Source: an uncultured Rhodospirillales bacterium
GTDB lineage: Bacteria; Pseudomonadota; Alphaproteobacteria; Reyranellales; Reyranellaceae
Direction: 5' to 3'
Assembly (NCBI GenBank): GCA_945957125.1
Contig: CAMFJT010000001.1
Location: 20,940 to 84,939 of the forward strand
DNA length: 64,000 nucleotides
Shown here: positions 6,580 through 30,970 of the stretch, piece after piece
Layout of the letters: the number at the start of each line of letters is the position of its first letter
Position numbering within the stretch: the first letter of the stretch is position 1
Translations under genes and position numbers: made by a program
Notes under the pieces: generated by a model
Seen by the model: the letters and a program-made list of their open reading frames with translations, nothing else
The model's database searches: none
Told to the model about the DNA's origin: nothing

Positions 6580-7445
6580 AGGGCATCGTCCTGGCGGGAG
6601 GGTCGGGCACGCGCCTGCACCCGGCGACGCTGGCCATCAACAAGCAGTTGCTGCCGATCTACGACAAGCCGATGATCTATTATCCGATATCGACGCTGAT
6701 GCTTGCCGATATCCGGGATATCCTCATCATCTCCTCGCCCGAGCATATCGACAACTACCGCTTCCTGCTCGGAACCGGCGAGCAGTTCGGCGTGACCTTC
6801 AGCTATACGATCCAGCCCAAGCCGCAAGGCTTGGCGCAGGCTTTCCTGTTGGGCAGGGAATTCATCGGCGGGGATCCCGTCGCCCTCATCCTGGGAGACA
6901 ACCTCTTCTTCGGTGCCGGGCTGCAGGATCTCCTGACGCGTGCGCGGCGGCGCGAGAGCGGTGCGACGGTGGTCGCCTATCACGTCGACCGGCCCGAGCA
7001 GTACGGCGTGATCACGATCGACGAGCACGGCCGGCCGATGCGCATCGTCGAGAAGCCGGCGGCGCCCGAATCGCGCTGGGCGGTCACCGGCCTGTATTTC
7101 TACGACAATCGGGTCGTCGACATCGCGAGCCGCGTGAAGCCCTCGGCGCGGGGAGAGCTCGAGATCACCGACGTGAACAATGCCTACCTGGAGAGCGGCG
7201 AGCTGAATGTCGAGTTGATGTCGCGCGGCTTCGCGTGGCTCGATACGGGTACGCACGACGATCTCCTGGATGCCGCGGAGTTCGTGCGCGTGATCCAGCG
7301 GCGCCAGGGCGTCCAGATCGCCTGCCTCGAGGAGATCGCCTACCAGAAGGGCTATATCGATCGCGAGAGCCTGGCCGCCCGCGGCCGCGCTTTCGCGAAG
7401 ACCGCCTATGGGCAGCATCTGCTGTCGCTGCTGACGCAGAGCTGA
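6576..7445 (+). CDS. rfbA: Glucose-1-phosphate thymidylyltransferase
   Basis: 'MKGIVLAGGSGTRLHPATLAINKQLLPIYDKPMIYYP', overlaps rfbD stop. Confidence 0.96.
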   Translation: MKGIVLAGGSGTRLHPATLAINKQLLPIYDKPMIYYPISTLMLADIRDILIISSPEHIDNYRFLLGTGEQFGVTFSYTIQPKPQGLAQAFLLGREFIGGDPVALILGDNLFFGAGLQDLLTRARRRESGATVVAYHVDRPEQYGVITIDEHGRPMRIVEKPAAPESRWAVTGLYFYDNRVVDIASRVKPSARGELEITDVNNAYLESGELNVELMSRGFAWLDTGTHDDLLDAAEFVRVIQRRQGVQIACLEEIAYQKGYIDRESLAARGRAFAKTAYGQHLLSLLTQS

Positions 7446-7448
7446 CCG

Positions 7449-8993
7449 TTACGTCGCGGGGGCGGCGGCGGCCGGAAGCGATCGGGTGTCGGCGGAGGCT
7501 TCCGGGATTTGCGTCATCCGCGGAAGATTGAGGGTGATCCCGGCATAGATCCAGAGCAGGAACAGCGTCGAATGCTCCTGGAACGGATCCATCAGGCCGC
7601 TCACCGCGACGCTGACGAAGGCAAGGAAGAGCGCCGAGGCGATCCACCTTATCTCGGGGTCCGGAGAGCCGCGCGACTGCCGCCACGCCAGGAGCGCGAT
7701 CCGCACGAAGAAGCCGAAGAACACCAGCGCGCCCGGAATGCCGATCTCCGACGTGAGGGCGAGGTACATGTTGTGGGTCGGTTCCAGGTAGAACTGGGTG
7801 TTCGAATCGCGCTTGTCGTAGGTGATGTTGACGTATCGCGGCTTCTCGGCCGTGCCGTTGTTCAGCCCCACCCCGAGGATCGGATTGTCGAGGATCATCC
7901 GCAGCGCCGCCTCGTATTGATAGAAGCGTACCGAGGCCGAATCGCTGCGAACCGTGAACTGATCGTAGATCTTGGGGCTGATGGCGGCCAGCCCGGCGAA
8001 GCCCGCCATGAGGATCAGCACGATCTCGGCGCGCTTGAGCATGCGGTCCCGGACCATGATCGCGAAGGCCAGCAGGCACTGGACGGCGACGAGGATGAAG
8101 TACACGCGGGTGAAGGTGAACAGCAGGCCGACCAGGCCGAAGCCGGTCAGGACGGCGAACAGCAGCGGCCTCGGATACATGACGTTTCGCGCGGAGAGCA
8201 GCAGGGCGAACGGAATGACCATCATGCACAGCCGCGTCGTCGACCCCGGCGAGGCCAGCGTGCCGTATCCCCGCACCGCCGATCCTTCCGTGGTGCGATC
8301 CACCTCCAGGTACTTCTGCATGTCGGCCAGGTTCTGGGTGACCGCGCCCGGGGTCAGCGGCGAGATGTAGCCGGTGGTGAAGCGGACCAGGGTCATCCCT
8401 GCCTGGGTCACCAGGATCGCGACTCCCACCAGGATGAGCACGCGCACGGCATCCTTGGTGTCCAGGCAGTTCACGGCAAAGAGAAAGGCGATGACGTACT
8501 TGACCTCCTGCGAAAGCTGGACGAAGCCCAGATAGGGCGAGCTCGCGCCGACGGTCGAGAGCAGCGCGATGCCGAGATAGGCGAGGGGCAGCCAGAAGAT
8601 CGACGGGATGCGCAGGGCCTTCTTGTGGAACAGCAGGTCGTTCATCCAGATCGCGAGGAGGACGAGCAGCAGCAGGTCGGACAGGGTGACCTGGAAGGTG
8701 AAAGCCCAGATGGTGTAGTTGATCTTCAGCGCGTCGACGACCGCGAGACCGTCGTTCAGGTTCTTGGCGATCTCGAACTGCGTCGACAGCAGGAAAAGGG
8801 CAAACCAGTAGAGCCGGAAGTTCTTGATGACGAAGGCCGGCAGGACCAAGAGCAGCGCGAGCGGCAGCGCCGCCACGTAGGCCGGCTTCGTCACGTACAG
8901 GCCGAACGCGACCACCGTGCCGATCCCCGCGCCCGCGCACAGCAGGAACAGGGAATTGCGCAACAGCAGCGCACGCGGGGCGGCCGTCATCAA
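7449..8993 (-). CDS. O-antigen ligase/polymerase (Wzy-like) membrane protein
   Basis: About 12 TM segments; 'ILGVGLNNG...PTHNMYLALTSEIGIPG' typical of Wzy_C/O-antigen ligase family. Confidence 0.85.
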   Translation of the reverse strand: MMTAAPRALLLRNSLFLLCAGAGIGTVVAFGLYVTKPAYVAALPLALLLVLPAFVIKNFRLYWFALFLLSTQFEIAKNLNDGLAVVDALKINYTIWAFTFQVTLSDLLLLVLLAIWMNDLLFHKKALRIPSIFWLPLAYLGIALLSTVGASSPYLGFVQLSQEVKYVIAFLFAVNCLDTKDAVRVLILVGVAILVTQAGMTLVRFTTGYISPLTPGAVTQNLADMQKYLEVDRTTEGSAVRGYGTLASPGSTTRLCMMVIPFALLLSARNVMYPRPLLFAVLTGFGLVGLLFTFTRVYFILVAVQCLLAFAIMVRDRMLKRAEIVLILMAGFAGLAAISPKIYDQFTVRSDSASVRFYQYEAALRMILDNPILGVGLNNGTAEKPRYVNITYDKRDSNTQFYLEPTHNMYLALTSEIGIPGALVFFGFFVRIALLAWRQSRGSPDPEIRWIASALFLAFVSVAVSGLMDPFQEHSTLFLLWIYAGITLNLPRMTQIPEASADTRSLPAAAAPAT

Positions 8994-18842: not shown

Positions 18843-20285
18843 TTGAGCCGGGCCTCGACTGCCGGCAGGCCGTGGCACCAGCTTGCCTTCGTGATCGGCG
18901 AGGCCATCCTGTCCCTGATCTCGGGCGGGGTCATCTTCATCGTCATCTCGCGGATATCCGGGCCGGACCTGCTCGGCACCTATGCGCTGGCCCTCGCCTG
19001 GCTGCTCGCGTTCCAGGGGTTGAGCGGGTTCGGTATCCCAGCCTTCGTCATGCGCGAGGTCGGCGCGTACGGCCGCGCCGCCGCCGGGCAGGTCGTGCAT
19101 GCGATGGTGCTCGGCCTGTTTACCGGGCTGCTGGGGCTGGCGCTCATGGTCGGCGCGAGTCGTGTCGTGGGCTATCCGGCCGACGTCGCCGACATCATCG
19201 CCGTCGCCAGCCTGGCGTTGATCCCGTCGAGCTTCGTCACGTCGTGCCGGTCCGTCTTCCTGGCCCTGCGCACGATGCACTTCACGCTCATCGCCGTGCT
19301 GGTCGAGGTTTCCATCACCCTGTCCGCCAGCCTGTACCTCGTCCTCTCCGGAGGCGGCGCGATGGGCCTCATGGTCACGCTCGTCGTGGCCAAGACGGCG
19401 TCGGCGGCAATCAGCCTCACCCTGCTGCGTTCCCGAATCCGCCTGGACCGGCCGGCGATCAGCCGGCGCGACCTCGTCGCGACGGCGCGCACGATCTTCA
19501 CGTTCGGCATCGGCAGCATGCTCGGGATGCTGACGATGCGGATCAACACCATCATGGTGTCGATCTGGGCCGATCTCGCGGCGGTCGGCCATTTCGCGGC
19601 GGCGACCAAGATCATGGAGATCGGCCTGATCGTGCCGACCCTGTTCCTCCAGCTCCTGATGACCCGCATCGCCTACAGCTTCAATACGCTGGGGACACGC
19701 GACCCCAACCAGTTTGCCGCGTGGTACCAGGTCCTGTTCGCGCTCGTGCTCCCGACCTGCGTCGGAGGCTGGGTCTTCGCCGGGTTCATCCTCGAGACGC
19801 TGTTCGGGCCGGCGTTCGGCGATTCGGTCTGGATCCTCAGGATCCTCATGATCTACCTGGCGATCGAGGCGGCCGACGCCGCCATGAGCGTGACGCTGCA
19901 GGCCGCACACAGGCAACGCGAGGACGCCACCCGCCTGGCAGCCAATCCCCTGGTCAACATCGCCCTCAATGCAGCGCTTCTGCCGACCGTCGGAACGGTC
20001 GGTGCGGCCCTGGGGCGGGTCGGCGGCGTCGCGGCATCGGCGACGCTGCGCTCCCGCTTCATCGCCCGGACGTTCTCGCGGGTGCACTGGTTCCGTTTCG
20101 CCTTCAAGCCGGCGCTGATCAGCGTCGCGGCGGGCGCGGCATGCGGCCTGCTGCAGGGCATGGCCCATCCCGCCGTGCTGATGATCGGATATTGCGTGGC
20201 GACCGTGACCTTCCTGGTCGCCTGGTCGACGATCACGCCTGCCGCGGTGAGGGACATCATGAGGGCGCCGTCGGCGTCCGACTGA
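18843..20285 (+). CDS. Polysaccharide biosynthesis flippase (Wzx/MVF-like)
   Basis: About 14 TM segments; oligosaccharide flippase-like composition; position in EPS locus. Confidence 0.82.
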   Translation: MSRASTAGRPWHQLAFVIGEAILSLISGGVIFIVISRISGPDLLGTYALALAWLLAFQGLSGFGIPAFVMREVGAYGRAAAGQVVHAMVLGLFTGLLGLALMVGASRVVGYPADVADIIAVASLALIPSSFVTSCRSVFLALRTMHFTLIAVLVEVSITLSASLYLVLSGGGAMGLMVTLVVAKTASAAISLTLLRSRIRLDRPAISRRDLVATARTIFTFGIGSMLGMLTMRINTIMVSIWADLAAVGHFAAATKIMEIGLIVPTLFLQLLMTRIAYSFNTLGTRDPNQFAAWYQVLFALVLPTCVGGWVFAGFILETLFGPAFGDSVWILRILMIYLAIEAADAAMSVTLQAAHRQREDATRLAANPLVNIALNAALLPTVGTVGAALGRVGGVAASATLRSRFIARTFSRVHWFRFAFKPALISVAAGAACGLLQGMAHPAVLMIGYCVATVTFLVAWSTITPAAVRDIMRAPSASD

Positions 20286-21761: not shown

Positions 21762-22757
21762 ATGAAGAACTCGATGTCGGAAACTAAAGCCGCAGGAGAC
21801 GGTGTCGGCGCGTCCCCGATCGTGGTGTCGATCATCATCGCCACCTACAACGCGGCCGGGCTTCTTGCCGATTGCCTGCGGTCGATCTACGAGAATCCGC
21901 CGAGCGAGCCGTACGAGATCATCGTCGTCGACGATGCCTCGCGCGATCGTACCAGCGAGATGGTGCGCGAGGAATTCCCCGACGTGGTGCTCTTCACGAA
22001 CAAGGTGAACAGCCACTACGCGACATCGAACAACCTGGCCTTCAGGCACGCCCGGGGGGAATTCTTCTTCCTCCTCAACAACGACACGATCGTGTTGCCG
22101 AACGCGATCGATCGCATGGTGGCTTTCCTGCGTCAGCATCCGGAAGCCGGATCGGTCGGCAGCAAGCTGCTCAACGAGGACGGATCGATCCAGTGGTCGG
22201 TCAAGACGTTGCCCAACGTGGGTTCCGCGCTTTTCGGCGCCCGTTCCTTCCTCACGCGGATATTCCCGAACAACCGCTTCTCGCGCGAGCATCTGCAGCA
22301 TTTGAGCCACGATCTGACCAAGCCGTTCGTTGCGGGCTACGTGTCGAGCGCCTCGGTCATGATGCCGCGCGACGTCGTCATGAAGGCGGGCGATCTCGAT
22401 CGCCGTCTCTCGTATCACGTCGATGCCGATTACTGTAAGCGGATCGCCGACCTGGGATACTGCAATTACTATCTTCCTGACGCCGTCGTCATTCATTTGA
22501 ATCACAGAGGCGGCACGATGGTGCATTGGCGGCGCCGGTTTCGGTCGGTCGTCGAATTCCACCGCGGCAGCTACATCTACTACGACAAGCACATGCGGCA
22601 GACCGCATCCCTGCCGATGCGGGCGATCGTGGTCGGCGGCCTCTCGGCGCGCTTCGTCGTCTCTCTCGCGATGCAGGCCGCGCTGGAGGTCTGTGGCCTC
22701 GCAACCGCCGCCGGTCGGCAGCTCACTCGCCCGAACCCGAGGAAGCCGGCGGTCTGA
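21762..22757 (+). CDS. Glycosyltransferase family 2
   Basis: 'VSIIIATYNAAGLLADCLRSIYENPPSEPYEIIVVDDASRDRT', 'FFLLNNDTIVLPNAI'. Confidence 0.92.
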   Translation: MKNSMSETKAAGDGVGASPIVVSIIIATYNAAGLLADCLRSIYENPPSEPYEIIVVDDASRDRTSEMVREEFPDVVLFTNKVNSHYATSNNLAFRHARGEFFFLLNNDTIVLPNAIDRMVAFLRQHPEAGSVGSKLLNEDGSIQWSVKTLPNVGSALFGARSFLTRIFPNNRFSREHLQHLSHDLTKPFVAGYVSSASVMMPRDVVMKAGDLDRRLSYHVDADYCKRIADLGYCNYYLPDAVVIHLNHRGGTMVHWRRRFRSVVEFHRGSYIYYDKHMRQTASLPMRAIVVGGLSARFVVSLAMQAALEVCGLATAAGRQLTRPNPRKPAV

Positions 22758-23229
22758 CCGGCGCATCGGAGGTGCTGTCGTCGCCCGCGCCGGCCCGCCG
22801 CTTTCCGACCTCGATGGAGGGAAACCGCACCGACAGCACGATGGTGTGGCCAGTCGCTTCCCACGAATGCACCACGTCGGGCCCGAATATCACGTAGTCG
22901 CCCTGTTTCCCGAGCACCACGCTCTGCGGCGTGGCGCCGACATGCAGCTCGACCTTGAGGGTTCCCTGAATCAGGATCGATACGGTCGTGGCGTTGCCGT
23001 TGGCCCATGGCTGCGACCGCTTGTGCCCGTCGGGATGTATTCCCCATTTCAGCTCGACACCGTCCTGGTGGCGCAAGCCCTCTGCTGCCGGGACGAATTG
23101 CCCGAGGAACCAGCCGCTGTCGCGAACCTGATCGGCCGCCGCATTGCCGACATAAAATGCTGTTCTGCTATCCATGTAGTCGCCTTTGCCCAAATCCCGT
23201 AAGCTTACCGTAAGTTCGCCGCGGAACAT
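22723..23229 (-). CDS. Cupin-domain protein
   Basis: 'WGIHPDGHKRSQPW...VSILIQGTLKVELHV...YVIFGPDVVHSWEA' cupin motifs; true start may be MDSRTAFY. Confidence 0.7.
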   Translation of the reverse strand: MFRGELTVSLRDLGKGDYMDSRTAFYVGNAAADQVRDSGWFLGQFVPAAEGLRHQDGVELKWGIHPDGHKRSQPWANGNATTVSILIQGTLKVELHVGATPQSVVLGKQGDYVIFGPDVVHSWEATGHTIVLSVRFPSIEVGKRRAGAGDDSTSDAPVRPPASSGSGE

Positions 23230-23389
23230 TCGTGTGATGCAGTTGAAATGTCGCCTAAGTCTTTAATCGATATCGTCAATTCAATCTCTTTCGAAAATGT
23301 TACCGGCGTTCTCACCTTCGGCTTGATATCGATGGGATTTAAAGTATGGTCGAAGGGACTATTTGGAAGATATTTTTAGGAGTGCGGCT

Positions 23390-24679
23390 ATGTCTATTGA
23401 GGAACTGACCGCCAGGCCAGCCCAGGCAAATGATATCAATGCAGCGCTTGAACACAGTCTCACGAATGAGTGGGACGCCAAGATTGTCACTTATCCGAAC
23501 GACAAGTATCCGTTCAATGAATGGATCCTGGGCCGTATTCGCGGGATGGGTTACAAGCTCGACGACCTGAGCTACCTGCACGAGAGCGTTCCTCTGGACG
23601 AGGTGTACAAGGTCACCAAGCAGCTCTGCGCCGATACCAACCTGCCCGAGTTCCGCCGGATGCTGAACAATTTCGTGCGCGACGTCGTCGTGCCGAAGGG
23701 CAAGCTGCGCCTGCCGGTGGCGGTGCAGCGGTTCATGAACGTGCGCATCATGCTTCCGACCACGCCGGAGCTGTTCTTCCCCTATCACACCGGCCTGCTC
23801 TACGGTCACGGCATCGCATCGCGCAGCATCTGGATGCCCTTCGTCGACGTTACCGCTGACGAGGACCTCACTCGCTCGATGCAGATCATCCCGATCAAGA
23901 AGTCGCGCGAGCTTGCCAAGCAGGCGATCGACGAGCGGCTGAACATGGCGCAGATGACGAAGCTGTTTGCCCAGCACAGCCACCAGATCAAGGCTGGTCC
24001 GGGCAGCTGCTGCTTCTTCAGCCAGGAGCACATCCACGGTTCGGGACGCCCCAACACGACGGGCAAGACCCGCGTCAGCATGGACTTCCGCATCGCCGAG
24101 GGAATTTACGGCGATCTGCTCGGGCGCAAGATCCCGGCCGGTTACTTCCACATCATTCCCAATACCGAGGAGGAAGAGGAGCGGCTCTCCAAGCGCGCTC
24201 CGCGTTCGGAGGCTTACAACAACGGCAAGCCGAACATCTTCTACGTCGCCAACAACACGGCCGCGACGTACTCGGTGCCGGTCCATCTTCAGCGCTACAT
24301 GCTGAACGACTACATGACCAAGAAGGGTCTGACCTGGAACTACGAGCTGTTCGACCTCGAGGACATGCTCCACTGCCCGACCCTCATGCACCTCATCGAG
24401 GAGCGCAACGCCAACACGGTGATGTACAGCATCTTCGCCCTTCCCGAGGAGGAGGCCGAGCGCAACCGCCTGCTCGAGATCGCGGTCAAGAGGGGCAACA
24501 TCATCCACTTCGTCAACGAAGACCTCCAGCTGACGAACGCCGACGATCTGGAGACGATCAAGAACTACCTGTCGTTCTCCAAGTACGGCCATTCGCGCCT
24601 GCCGATCGGCCTGCCGATCTCGGGCCAGACCAAGGCCTACTTCGACAAGTGGGGAGCCTCCCTGGCGCAGAACAGCTGA
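23390..24679 (+). CDS. Fusion: 2OG-Fe(II) oxygenase-like domain + LIC12192-like sporadic carbohydrate cluster domain
   Basis: RBS 'taggag' before ATG 23390; 'YHTGLLYGHGIASRSIWMPFVDV' and 'HIHGSGRPNTTGKTRVSMDFR' (2OG-like); C-term 'TYSVPVHLQRYMLNDYMTKKGLTWNYELFDLEDMLHCPTLMHLIEE...VMYSIFALPEEEAERNRLLEIAVKRGNIIHFVNEDLQL' (LIC12192-like). Confidence 0.75.
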   Translation: MSIEELTARPAQANDINAALEHSLTNEWDAKIVTYPNDKYPFNEWILGRIRGMGYKLDDLSYLHESVPLDEVYKVTKQLCADTNLPEFRRMLNNFVRDVVVPKGKLRLPVAVQRFMNVRIMLPTTPELFFPYHTGLLYGHGIASRSIWMPFVDVTADEDLTRSMQIIPIKKSRELAKQAIDERLNMAQMTKLFAQHSHQIKAGPGSCCFFSQEHIHGSGRPNTTGKTRVSMDFRIAEGIYGDLLGRKIPAGYFHIIPNTEEEEERLSKRAPRSEAYNNGKPNIFYVANNTAATYSVPVHLQRYMLNDYMTKKGLTWNYELFDLEDMLHCPTLMHLIEERNANTVMYSIFALPEEEAERNRLLEIAVKRGNIIHFVNEDLQLTNADDLETIKNYLSFSKYGHSRLPIGLPISGQTKAYFDKWGASLAQNS

Positions 24680-24882: not shown

Positions 24883-25704
24883 GTGAACGCGGGAGCGACT
24901 GAAGAACAGGCGGCGAGCCGGATTTCGAGACGCGACTTACTACAGCAACATCACGGACGGGTGCACGCAGTGCCCGTCCGCGATGTCGTCGGTTCATCCG
25001 GATGGCTGGCGGAGACGTCGTATCGCATCGTCGAAGTCACGGCGGCCGCGATCGGGCTCATTGTAAGCCTGCCGATCCTGCTGGTTGCAGCGGTGCTTGT
25101 GCGCATCGACTCGCCGGGGCCGATCCTGTTCCTGCACCGGCGCCCCGCGCGCTCGGTGGTTCGCGACGGGCGCAGCCTCATCGGGCGAACGGATCTCGTC
25201 CCGCCGCCCGGCGGCTTCGAGCCGAATACCCTCTACCTGGTGCCCAGCTATTTCACCCTGATCAAATTTCGGACGATGTACGCGGATTCGCGGACACGCT
25301 TTCCCGATCTTTACCGCTACTCGTTCACCGCAACGAATTTCCACCAGCAGTTCCCCACCCCCAATCCCGATCCCCGGATCACGCGGGTGGGAAGCGTCCT
25401 GCGCAAGATGTCGATCGACGAGCTGCCGAACCTGTGGTCGGTCGTGGTCGGGGATATCCGGCTGGTTGGTCCGCGCCCGGAAGCGCCGGAAGTGCTGCAG
25501 TTCTATACGCCGCAGGAGATGTACAAGTTCGCCTGCAAGCCCGGCATCACCGGCCTGGCGCAGATCAATGGGCGCGGTCTGCTGACCTGGGGCGAGACGC
25601 TGGCCTGGGACCTGAAGTACATCGGCCAGCGAAGCGTCGCCCTGGACCTGAAGATCATCCTGCTGACGTTGTGGCGGGTGGTCACGCGGTTCGGCGCGTT
25701 CTAG
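24883..25704 (+). CDS. Undecaprenyl-phosphate sugar transferase (initiating phosphoglycosyl transferase)
   Basis: 'SPGPILFLHRR', 'LIKFRTMY', 'RKMSIDELPNLWSVVVGDIRLVGPRPE', 'KPGITGLAQINGRG'. Confidence 0.93.
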   Translation: MNAGATEEQAASRISRRDLLQQHHGRVHAVPVRDVVGSSGWLAETSYRIVEVTAAAIGLIVSLPILLVAAVLVRIDSPGPILFLHRRPARSVVRDGRSLIGRTDLVPPPGGFEPNTLYLVPSYFTLIKFRTMYADSRTRFPDLYRYSFTATNFHQQFPTPNPDPRITRVGSVLRKMSIDELPNLWSVVVGDIRLVGPRPEAPEVLQFYTPQEMYKFACKPGITGLAQINGRGLLTWGETLAWDLKYIGQRSVALDLKIILLTLWRVVTRFGAF

Positions 25705-26526: not shown

Positions 26527-27312
26527 CTAGTAGAGATCGGGGACCGTCCGTCGCTCCGCGATCGACCGGTAGTCGTCGTATGCACGGGCCTCGAGCCGGG
26601 CCGGGAGCTTCAGGGCGGCGCGATGCACGGGCTCGTAGGGGAACTGCGAGACGATGTGCGAGATCGCGTTGAGCGTCCCGCTCCGCACGTCGTCCATATG
26701 CACGATGTGCCAGGGTGCGTGGCGGGTATCGGTGTGCTCGAACACCAGATCCCGGGCGCGCGAATGATCGTACCACCGGCGATGCAGCTCGAGGCCGCGC
26801 GGCGTGACCTGCCAGCGTCGCAGGGGATCGGCCAGACACTCCGTCATGCGTCGCTCCTCCTCCTCTGGTCCGACTTCGATCCAGAGCTTCACGAGCCTCA
26901 CGCCGGCGTCGACCAGCAGCTGCTCGGCCAGGGGGCAGGCCTTGAGGAATTGCAGGTGCTGCTCGTGGGTACACAAGCCCAAGACGAAATCGACGGTTGC
27001 CGAACGGTACCAGCTTTCTCCCAGCATAGCGATCTCCCCCGCGGCCGGGAAGTATCGGGCGAAGGGCTGCATGTGGTTCTCCGTCTCGGCCGCGTTGTCC
27101 TCGGCAGAACCGCTGGTCACGCGGAAGATGCGCGGGTCGGTGCACTGGGCGAGGGTGCGGAGGAGGTGGTCTTTGTCGCCCGAGAACCGCCCCTCCAGCA
27201 CGATCACGCCGCGCTGCCGGGAGAGCACGACCCACTCCTGCAGCCGGCAAAGCTCGAGCTGCAGCCGGTGCAACTCGGCGTCGAATGGCTTCCTCTTCGG
27301 CGGGCTGGACAT
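26527..27312 (-). CDS. PPK2-family protein with degenerate catalytic motifs (putative pseudo-kinase)
   Basis: Collinear with PPK2 at 37272, but Walker A is 'GRFSGDKDH' and Walker B region 'LGESWYRS'. Confidence 0.8.
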   Translation of the reverse strand: MSSPPKRKPFDAELHRLQLELCRLQEWVVLSRQRGVIVLEGRFSGDKDHLLRTLAQCTDPRIFRVTSGSAEDNAAETENHMQPFARYFPAAGEIAMLGESWYRSATVDFVLGLCTHEQHLQFLKACPLAEQLLVDAGVRLVKLWIEVGPEEEERRMTECLADPLRRWQVTPRGLELHRRWYDHSRARDLVFEHTDTRHAPWHIVHMDDVRSGTLNAISHIVSQFPYEPVHRAALKLPARLEARAYDDYRSIAERRTVPDLY

Positions 27313-27372
27313 CGTCGGCGGCTCTGTCGATGGCGGGACGCTCAGGGTAGCGTCCAGACGGGCTGCCCTCCC

Positions 27373-27386
27373 TTGACTTTGGTCAA
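27373..27386. promoter_or_regulatory. FNR/FixK-like anaerobox TTGACtttgGTCAA
   Basis: Perfect palindromic half sites; 61 bp upstream of PPK2-like start (27312). Confidence 0.75.
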
Positions 27387-27409
27387 GCCATCGGAGCAGA
27401 GGATGCCGG

Positions 27410-28378
27410 ATGGGAGCTGGGCCGCGGATCACGAGGCGGGCTGTTCTGGCCGGCGCGGCGCTGCCCGCCGGCGCGCTCGCGCAGGGTTGGCCGGAGAAGC
27501 CCATCCGGCTCGTCCTCGCCGGGCCTCCGGGCGGCATCATCGATGTCGGCGCGCGGGCTGTCCTGGAAGCACTCTCCGCGGAGTTGCATCAGACGGTGGT
27601 GCTCGACCATCGCCCTGGCGCGGGCGGCATGATCGCCGCCCAGATTGCCTCGGGTGCCCCGCCCGACGGTTACACGCTCCTGCTGACGGTCTCGGAGATC
27701 TCGGCGATCCAGTTCCTCACGTCCGTGAAGTTCGACCTGCAGCGCGATCTCGTGCCGATCGCCACGATCGGGGAAGGCGCTGCGCTGGTCTGCGTTCCCG
27801 GCGGCATGGCGGTCGGCTCGTTGCACGAGTTGATCGCCTACGCGAGGAGCAATCGGGGAGCCGTGCGATACCTCAATCCCGGCAACGGCACGCGCCAGCA
27901 TCTCATCCCCGAACAGCTCAACCGGGCGTTCGGCACGGGCATGATCGCTGTCCCCTACCGCGGCCTTCCTCCCGGCATCGTCGACCTGCTCGAAGGACGG
28001 ATCGAGCTGGGCGTCGTCAGCACCGCGCTGGTCCTGTCCCATGTCGATGGCGGCGCGCTGCGCGCCATCGCCACCCTCGGCGAACGCCGGCTGAGCCGGT
28101 TGCCCGGGGTGCCGACGATCGGCGAGCAGGGTCTCGGCGAGATGAACGTTCGGTCGATCCTGACTCTGTTCGGCCCGCCCCGCCTCGCCCCTCCGATCGT
28201 CCAACGGCTCAACCTCGCCGTCGGCCGCGCGATCGCGAGCCCGGCCGCGCAGGCCTATCTCGCCGCCGCCGACATCCTGACCGAGACTTCCGATCCGGAA
28301 GACCTGCGCCGTCGGCTTGCCGAAGACCAGACGCGGTTCGCAGCCCTGCTCGAGTCGCTCGAGCTCAAGCCGGGATGA
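27410..28378 (+). CDS. Tripartite tricarboxylate transporter substrate-binding protein (Bug family)
   Basis: 'WPEKPIRLVLAGPPGGIIDVGARAV', 'VVLDHRPGAGGMIAAQ', 'PPDGYTLLL'. Confidence 0.88.
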   Translation: MGAGPRITRRAVLAGAALPAGALAQGWPEKPIRLVLAGPPGGIIDVGARAVLEALSAELHQTVVLDHRPGAGGMIAAQIASGAPPDGYTLLLTVSEISAIQFLTSVKFDLQRDLVPIATIGEGAALVCVPGGMAVGSLHELIAYARSNRGAVRYLNPGNGTRQHLIPEQLNRAFGTGMIAVPYRGLPPGIVDLLEGRIELGVVSTALVLSHVDGGALRAIATLGERRLSRLPGVPTIGEQGLGEMNVRSILTLFGPPRLAPPIVQRLNLAVGRAIASPAAQAYLAAADILTETSDPEDLRRRLAEDQTRFAALLESLELKPG

Positions 28379-29857: not shown

Positions 29858-30970
29858 TCACGCGATGGGGAGACGTTCGCCGCGCTCGTAGATGACGTGA
29901 GCCCGGCCGACGAGCAGCGGGTCGACCGGCCCGATGCGCTTCTCGTCCTTGTGCGCATAGGGCAGGGCGTGCAGCACGTAGCGCAGGGCGTTCAACCGCG
30001 CGCGCTTCTTGCAGTTGGACTTGATGACCGTCCACGGCGCATCGACCGTGTCGGTATAGTGGAACATCGCCTCCTTCGCCTTGGTGTAGTCCTTCCATTT
30101 GTCGAGCGAGGCGAGGTCGATCGGCGACAGCTTCCATTGCTTGAGCGGATGGGACTTGCGCTCGGTGAAGCGGCGATGCTGCTCGTCGCGGCTGACCGAG
30201 AACCAGAACTTGATGAGGCGGATGCCGCTGCGTGTCAGGTTGCGCTCGAACTCGGGCGTCTGGCGCATGAATTCCCGGTATTCGTCGTCGTTGCAGAAGC
30301 CCATGACATGCTCGACGCCGGCGCGATTGTACCAGGAGCGATCGAACAGCACGATCTCGCCGGCCGTCGGCAGGGTCTGCACGTAGCGCTGGAAATACCA
30401 CTGCCCGCGCTCGATCTCGCTCGGCTTCTCCAGGGCCACCACGCGCGCGCCGCGAGGATTGAGATTCTCCATGAAGCGCTTGATCGTGCCGCCCTTGCCC
30501 GCCGCGTCGCGTCCCTCGAACAGGATCACGACCTTCTGCTGCGTCGCCTTTACCCAGGCCTGAAGCTTCAGCAGCTCGACCTGCAGGGCGTACTTCTGGC
30601 GCTCGTAGGTCTTGCGCTGCATGAGATTGCGGTAGGGATAACCTCCGTCGCGCCAACCGTCCGCGAGCTCGTCGTCGGATGCCGCCGAGTCGTCGGACGC
30701 CGCGCCGTTGCCGGTCAAAGCCTTGCGCACGGCCTTGGCGTCGTCGGGGGAGAGGCCTTCGAGGACGGCGCGCAACACCCCTGCCAGCTCCTGCGCACGG
30801 CCGGGCAGCATACCGCCGATGATGTCGCGGATCGCCTGCTCATTCACGATCTGGGCGGCTTCCACGGCCTCTCCGGCATAGGCGCGGTCGAGTGCCGTCG
30901 CGGCGAGACGCGGTGATCCGGCCTCGGTCGAGCCCGGCCGGGTTGGAGCGACAGCAGTCTGGTCCGTCAC
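29858..30970 (-). CDS. Polyphosphate kinase 2 with N-terminal extension
   Basis: 'VVILFEGRDAAGKGGTIKRFMENLNPRGARVVALEKPSEIERGQWYFQRYVQTLPTAGEIVLFDRSWYNRAGVE'. Confidence 0.95.
   Translation of the reverse strand: MTDQTAVAPTRPGSTEAGSPRLAATALDRAYAGEAVEAAQIVNEQAIRDIIGGMLPGRAQELAGVLRAVLEGLSPDDAKAVRKALTGNGAASDDSAASDDELADGWRDGGYPYRNLMQRKTYERQKYALQVELLKLQAWVKATQQKVVILFEGRDAAGKGGTIKRFMENLNPRGARVVALEKPSEIERGQWYFQRYVQTLPTAGEIVLFDRSWYNRAGVEHVMGFCNDDEYREFMRQTPEFERNLTRSGIRLIKFWFSVSRDEQHRRFTERKSHPLKQWKLSPIDLASLDKWKDYTKAKEAMFHYTDTVDAPWTVIKSNCKKRARLNALRYVLHALPYAHKDEKRIGPVDPLLVGRAHVIYERGERLPIA

Follow-up and report, generated by a model that had tools for sequence, protein, structure and literature searches.

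A rare fusion of 2OG-Fe(II) oxygenase-type and LIC12192 domains with an altered metal site, a tentative candidate for a sugar halogenase of exopolysaccharide assembly

The gene considered here is flanked by a divergent cupin gene and a sugar-phosphate transferase gene and closes an exopolysaccharide (EPS) locus, in a window (by which we mean the whole stretch of DNA that was analysed) of 64,000 nucleotides. The presence of flippase, Wzz, GT2 and sugar transferase genes bears out the original assignment of the region to EPS synthesis, and the divergent cupin gene that had been placed beside the fused gene is found at 22723-23229 on the minus strand. The features that concern us are as follows, with the source of each assignment in brackets.

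18843..20285, plus strand: Wzx-type flippase of the EPS locus (Pfam)
21762..22757, plus strand: GT2 glycosyltransferase of the EPS locus (Pfam)
22723..23229, minus strand: divergent cupin; homology places its start near 23175
23378..23382, plus strand: AGGAG, ribosome-binding-site-like, 5' of the ATG at 23390 (sequence reading)
23390 (ATG)..24679 (stop), plus strand: fused 2OG-Fe(II)/LIC12192 gene (P0001), 429 aa (ORF, HMMs, full-length relatives)
23474..24145, plus strand: 2OG-Fe(II) oxygenase-type double-stranded beta-helix, residues ~29-252 (TIGR04324, AlphaFold, Foldseek)
23786..23794, plus strand: H133-T134-G135, HxG replacing the iron-ligand HxD (alignments)
24035..24037, plus strand: H216, distal iron-ligand His (invariant in alignments)
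24071..24091, plus strand: conserved R228 and R234, one of them the expected anchor of the 2OG carboxylate (invariant in alignments)
24146..24235, plus strand: linker, residues ~253-282, found in the fused family only (alignments)
24236..24586, plus strand: LIC12192/SpoChoClust_1 domain, residues ~283-399, with a predicted resolvase-like fold (TIGR04323, model, Foldseek, invariants shared with split homologues)
24883..25704, plus strand: polyprenyl-phosphate sugar-1-phosphate transferase (Bac_transf), the next gene downstream (NCBIfam, Pfam)

The open reading frame from 23390 to 24679 contains no internal stop codon. A 2OG-oxygenase-like and a LIC12192-like part had been proposed for its product, and HMM searches against NCBIfam recover both: TIGR04324 (SpoChoClust_2) matches residues 56-236 (E 3.2e-17, 62.9 bits, below the curated cut-off of 150 bits) and TIGR04323 (SpoChoClust_1/LIC12192) matches residues 285-399 (E 1.8e-15, 57.0 bits, just above the curated cut-off of 55 bits). 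With this second hit the placement of the C-terminal half in the LIC12192 family stands, and the border between the domains, put beforehand at 285/286, is found close by, near residue 253-283. The other fused relatives score 61.0-64.8 bits against TIGR04324, likewise below 150, and 51.3, 59.1 and 54.4 bits against TIGR04323, the fused family as a whole being borderline at the cut-off of 55. Pfam offers no family for the fused protein at E up to 1, and a sequence search of the PDB returned no solved relative. Full-length relatives, with 73-75% identity, occur in three other records only, from Candidatus Binataceae, a Hyphomicrobiales MAG and a Beijerinckiaceae USCa_MF MAG, thus from a second phylum and from two further groups of Alphaproteobacteria. 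Because these three independent records share the full-length fusion, an assembly artefact can be rejected.

The two families had been put forward as usually the products of separate neighbouring genes, and this is indeed the usual arrangement, since in every one of the 28 genomes with canonical members the genes are adjacent and on one strand, 2OG first and LIC12192 second, with 1-38 bases from the 2OG stop to the start of LIC12192 homology. The split pair is present in four congeners (G012, G014, G020 and G033) and the fusion in none of the 36 congeners searched. With a profile of the four fused proteins, no further fused member came up in the order to which one relative (L042) belongs (348 genomes) or in the phylum of another (L041; 248 genomes), and neither the plasmid and phage collections searched nor an IMG/VR protein scan yielded a relative; a single motif match in a T4-like IMG/VR contig was taken as chance. 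The taxonomic survey thus leaves two adjacent genes as the usual form, and the fusion, which might have proved to be the standard architecture of a characterised family, as rare. Fused proteins from different phyla are as similar to each other (75% identity) as those from one class; this and their absence from congeners indicate that the fused gene has spread by horizontal transfer.

In the phylogenetic tree the four fused proteins form one fully supported clade outside the split clade, with a long stem of 3.95 changes per site; the deeper branching there is unreliable owing to long branches. Identity of the fused protein to either split half is about 22%. By these comparisons the fused family is rare, distinct, diverged and of single origin, the product of an old fusion, and the long stem and low identity lead us to reject the view that the canonical pair merged recently. 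Like the SpoChoClust_2/SpoChoClust_1 pair (TIGR04324 and TIGR04323), the fused gene combines both domains in the same order and is sporadically distributed; it differs in being one polypeptide with HxG rather than HxD, in forming a separate clade and in a 2OG half that scores far below the TIGR04324 cut-off. The original suggestion that a fusion implies joint action of the two domains on one sugar intermediate is supported as an idea, but it does not extend to the canonical pair: the fused family is diverged and of single origin, so that what holds for it is not simply transferable.

A structural model of residues 270-429 (pLDDT 74.5) was compared with known structures by Foldseek, and all 15 of the best matches are serine recombinases (best 2rsl, E 9.6e-4, TMt 0.64). 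Serine recombinases carry the catalytic motif Y-x-R-x-S, and this is absent from all 20 aligned LIC12192 members, fused and split. Seven other residues, Y285, Q301, S347, F349, P352, R358 and E377 in the numbering of the fused protein, are invariant across the same 20 sequences (alignment A4; alignment A3, in which the two domains are misaligned, was left out of the results). The predicted fold is that of the gamma-delta resolvase catalytic domain, from which the LIC12192 domain differs in having neither Y-x-R-x-S, nor a DNA-binding domain, nor detectable sequence similarity. Profiles of the domain find no PDB match and only weak, unrelated Pfam matches. On this single model the LIC12192 domain is predicted to have put a resolvase fold to a new use, its active or binding site being a different one. 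In the literature searched we found neither a publication on the LIC12192/SpoChoClust_1 family nor any structural clue to it earlier than the resolvase-like fold.

The metal site of the 2OG half is altered in the fused family. When all retrieved homologues were surveyed with a profile, the four fused proteins read H-G-H-R (motif HTG) at the positions in question, while the carboxylate ligand is kept in all 34 non-fused relatives with readable columns (H-D in 33, H-E in one); all 33 H-D relatives also keep the distal His and the Arg. H133-T134-G135 aligns without gaps on the HxD motif, as is seen from the ungapped context of the metal site (FFPYHTGLLYGHG versus LLPVHADVWDGDS), and H216, R228 and R234 are invariant in the 2OG alignments. 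The four known members make up a single clade, and the HxG change therefore counts as one evolutionary event. Three codons (GGC, GGT and GGA) are used for its Gly, pairwise dN/dS within the family is about 0.1-0.2, and among the four proteins 84% and 78% of residues are invariant in the stretches near the two His and the Arg, versus 44-56% elsewhere. Because dN/dS is low and the most invariant stretches lie at the metal site, the site, though altered, is actively maintained under purifying selection. With the carboxylate Fe ligand lost (HxG for HxD), the 2OG half probably carries out a chemistry other than that of the split enzymes.

A related 2OG protein that retains the Asp (L050; gene at 3-623 on the minus strand, at a contig end) has the metal-site context of the fused family, HTDYLYGHG within SFHTDYLYGHG (SFHTDYLYGHGLRSKTVW in L050 versus FPYHTGLLYGHGIASRSIW). 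With an overall identity of only about 22%, it does not count as a proven direct ancestor.

The AlphaFold model of the full-length protein (pLDDT 76.7, pTM 0.73) gives the CurA halogenase as its best five Foldseek matches; PhyH-type hydroxylases, with PtlH and PhyH among the matches, score almost level, and the structures superpose poorly (TMq about 0.3). The top rank of CurA is therefore rejected as proof of halogenation, and the matches support the predicted fold rather than the reaction. PhyH-type oxygenases (PtlH, SnoK/SnoN, HygX, AviO1 and EvdO1), several of which act on sugar moieties, have the fold, distal His and Arg in common with the fused protein (Foldseek; for PtlH also a profile); these enzymes differ in having the full HxD/E triad and are not known to carry a LIC12192 domain. 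With the Fe(II)/2OG halogenases (SyrB2/CurA, WelO5/DAH, BesD and AdaV) the fused protein shares HxG...H, the retained Arg and the double-stranded beta-helix; in contrast to them it has no match to the chlorinating-enzyme HMM TIGR01762 at E up to 1, and halogenation is here a prediction. A search for chlorinating-enzyme homologues for side-by-side comparison gave none above the family cut-off.

HXG/A is the recognition motif of Fe/2OG halogenases (PMC11186838), and a plant halogenase has been created by a D-to-G switch (PMC12346261). The fused protein shows this pattern, HxG/A for HxD/E with the distal His kept, and it equally shows the HXG...H site of human AspH, which is nonetheless a hydroxylase (PMC8252765). 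Since AspH shares the site and hydroxylates, the motif is not decisive; it is a lead that raises the chances of halogenation. Most probably the fused protein is catalytically active, a two-His Fe/2OG enzyme whose target is a sugar intermediate of EPS synthesis. As to the reaction, halogenation ranks as the most probable, followed by an AspH-like oxidation and, third, by a non-catalytic domain.

We accordingly favour, with confidence a little short of even, a bifunctional, two-His, halogenating enzyme that modifies a sugar during exopolysaccharide assembly. In such an enzyme the N-terminal double-stranded beta-helix would hold Fe(II) by two protein ligands only, H133 and H216, and one of the conserved arginines, R228 or R234, would anchor 2OG. 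Gly135 stands where nearly all other relatives have the Asp that serves as third ligand, so that the position left free would most likely be occupied by halide; a Cl-Fe(IV)=O species, generated as 2OG is oxidatively decarboxylated, would then remove H from a sugar carbon and give back Cl. The resolvase-like LIC12192 domain would be no recombinase and would instead take the same lipid- or nucleotide-linked sugar as its ligand or substrate, and we propose that the two domains stay adjacent or fused because both act on it. Horizontal transfer would carry the cassette, which often includes a phosphoglycosyl transferase and a cupin, from one soil bacterium to another. Halide binding, halogenation, the sugar substrate and the role of LIC12192 are what we infer here, a nucleotide- or lipid-linked sugar being suggested by the gene context. 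That the family as a whole is a carbohydrate halogenase, an additional group of Fe/2OG halogenases with a resolvase-fold partner domain of its own, chlorinating or brominating a nucleotide- or lipid-linked sugar, and that some soil bacteria make halogenated exopolysaccharides, is possible, though somewhat less likely than not; no chlorinated exopolysaccharide was found in the literature searched.

The strongest competitor, in our view unlikely though deserving serious attention, is a two-His hydroxylase or oxidase like AspH, with water in the site, that hydroxylates, oxidises or epimerises the sugar, as the split oxygenases presumably do. AspH works with HXG...H, the replacing residue being Gly there as well, and an Asp-to-Gly variant of FIH retains some activity where Asp-to-Ala does not (PMC8252765); moreover, the fused protein shares its sugar-locus setting and its LIC12192 partner with the split HxD enzymes. 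AspH, however, belongs to another family (the fused protein has no AspH-family Pfam match) and acts on protein, and the loss, in one clade under strong constraint, of a carboxylate kept in 34 of 34 scorable relatives suggests a change of reaction. Less likely again is a 2OG half that is redox-dead, serving as a sugar-binding or scaffold domain while the LIC12192 half does the chemistry; the missing canonical carboxylate and scores of both halves far below those of typical family members would fit, but both His and the Arg are invariant in the most conserved surroundings of the protein, unlike a decayed active site. A plain fusion of the canonical SpoChoClust pair, its function unchanged and HxG the result of incidental drift, has the same two families in the same order on its side and is nevertheless improbable, given that the fused family branches outside the canonical split clade on a stem of 3.95 changes per site, is about 22% identical to it and has a fixed ligand change.

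For the SpoChoClust pair HMM names exist, and we found no published function in the literature searched. The fusion assigns both halves to a common task, and from the HxG change a chloride-dependent chemistry on a sugar is predicted. Known substrates of Fe/2OG halogenases are carrier-bound compounds, alkaloids, amino acids and nucleotides, not polysaccharide sugars (PMC11186838), so that halogenation by the fused enzyme, if true, would extend this chemistry to surface polysaccharides, and sugar halogenation would be new. Should halogenation prove false, the protein would be another naturally two-His 2OG oxygenase, itself of interest since motif searches discard proteins of this sort.

Two of the neighbouring genes recur. 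Homologues of Bac_transf (66-68% identity) adjoin the fused gene in L043 and L041, so that with the window included the transferase is adjacent in three of the four loci (66-71% identity among them). A cupin homologue (65% identity) lies near the fused gene of L042, and cupin and fused gene share a contig in G000, G699 and G698, which are all three of the checkable genomes (L043 was left out, its contig being too short); in G698 some 19 kb separate the two, and the cupin is clustered with dTDP/CDP-sugar genes. The cupin is absent from seven genomes with the split pair and from all 60 relatives of the window, and this rare protein is possibly a functional partner of the fused gene.

Two unrelated loci encode a CPA2-type cation:proton antiporter in the vicinity of the fused gene (L042:9558-10850 and L043:2783-4030), and none was seen near it in the window. 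The Hyphomicrobiales MAG has its fused gene, antiporter and cupin outside an EPS locus (L042:8125-11312), next to a gene for a PEP-CTERM-type protein (6822-7967). Downstream in the window are two PPK2 polyphosphate kinase genes, at 26527-27540 and 29858-30970, both on the minus strand and about 2.3 kb apart, between which lie TctC-type receptor and DUF2254 genes.
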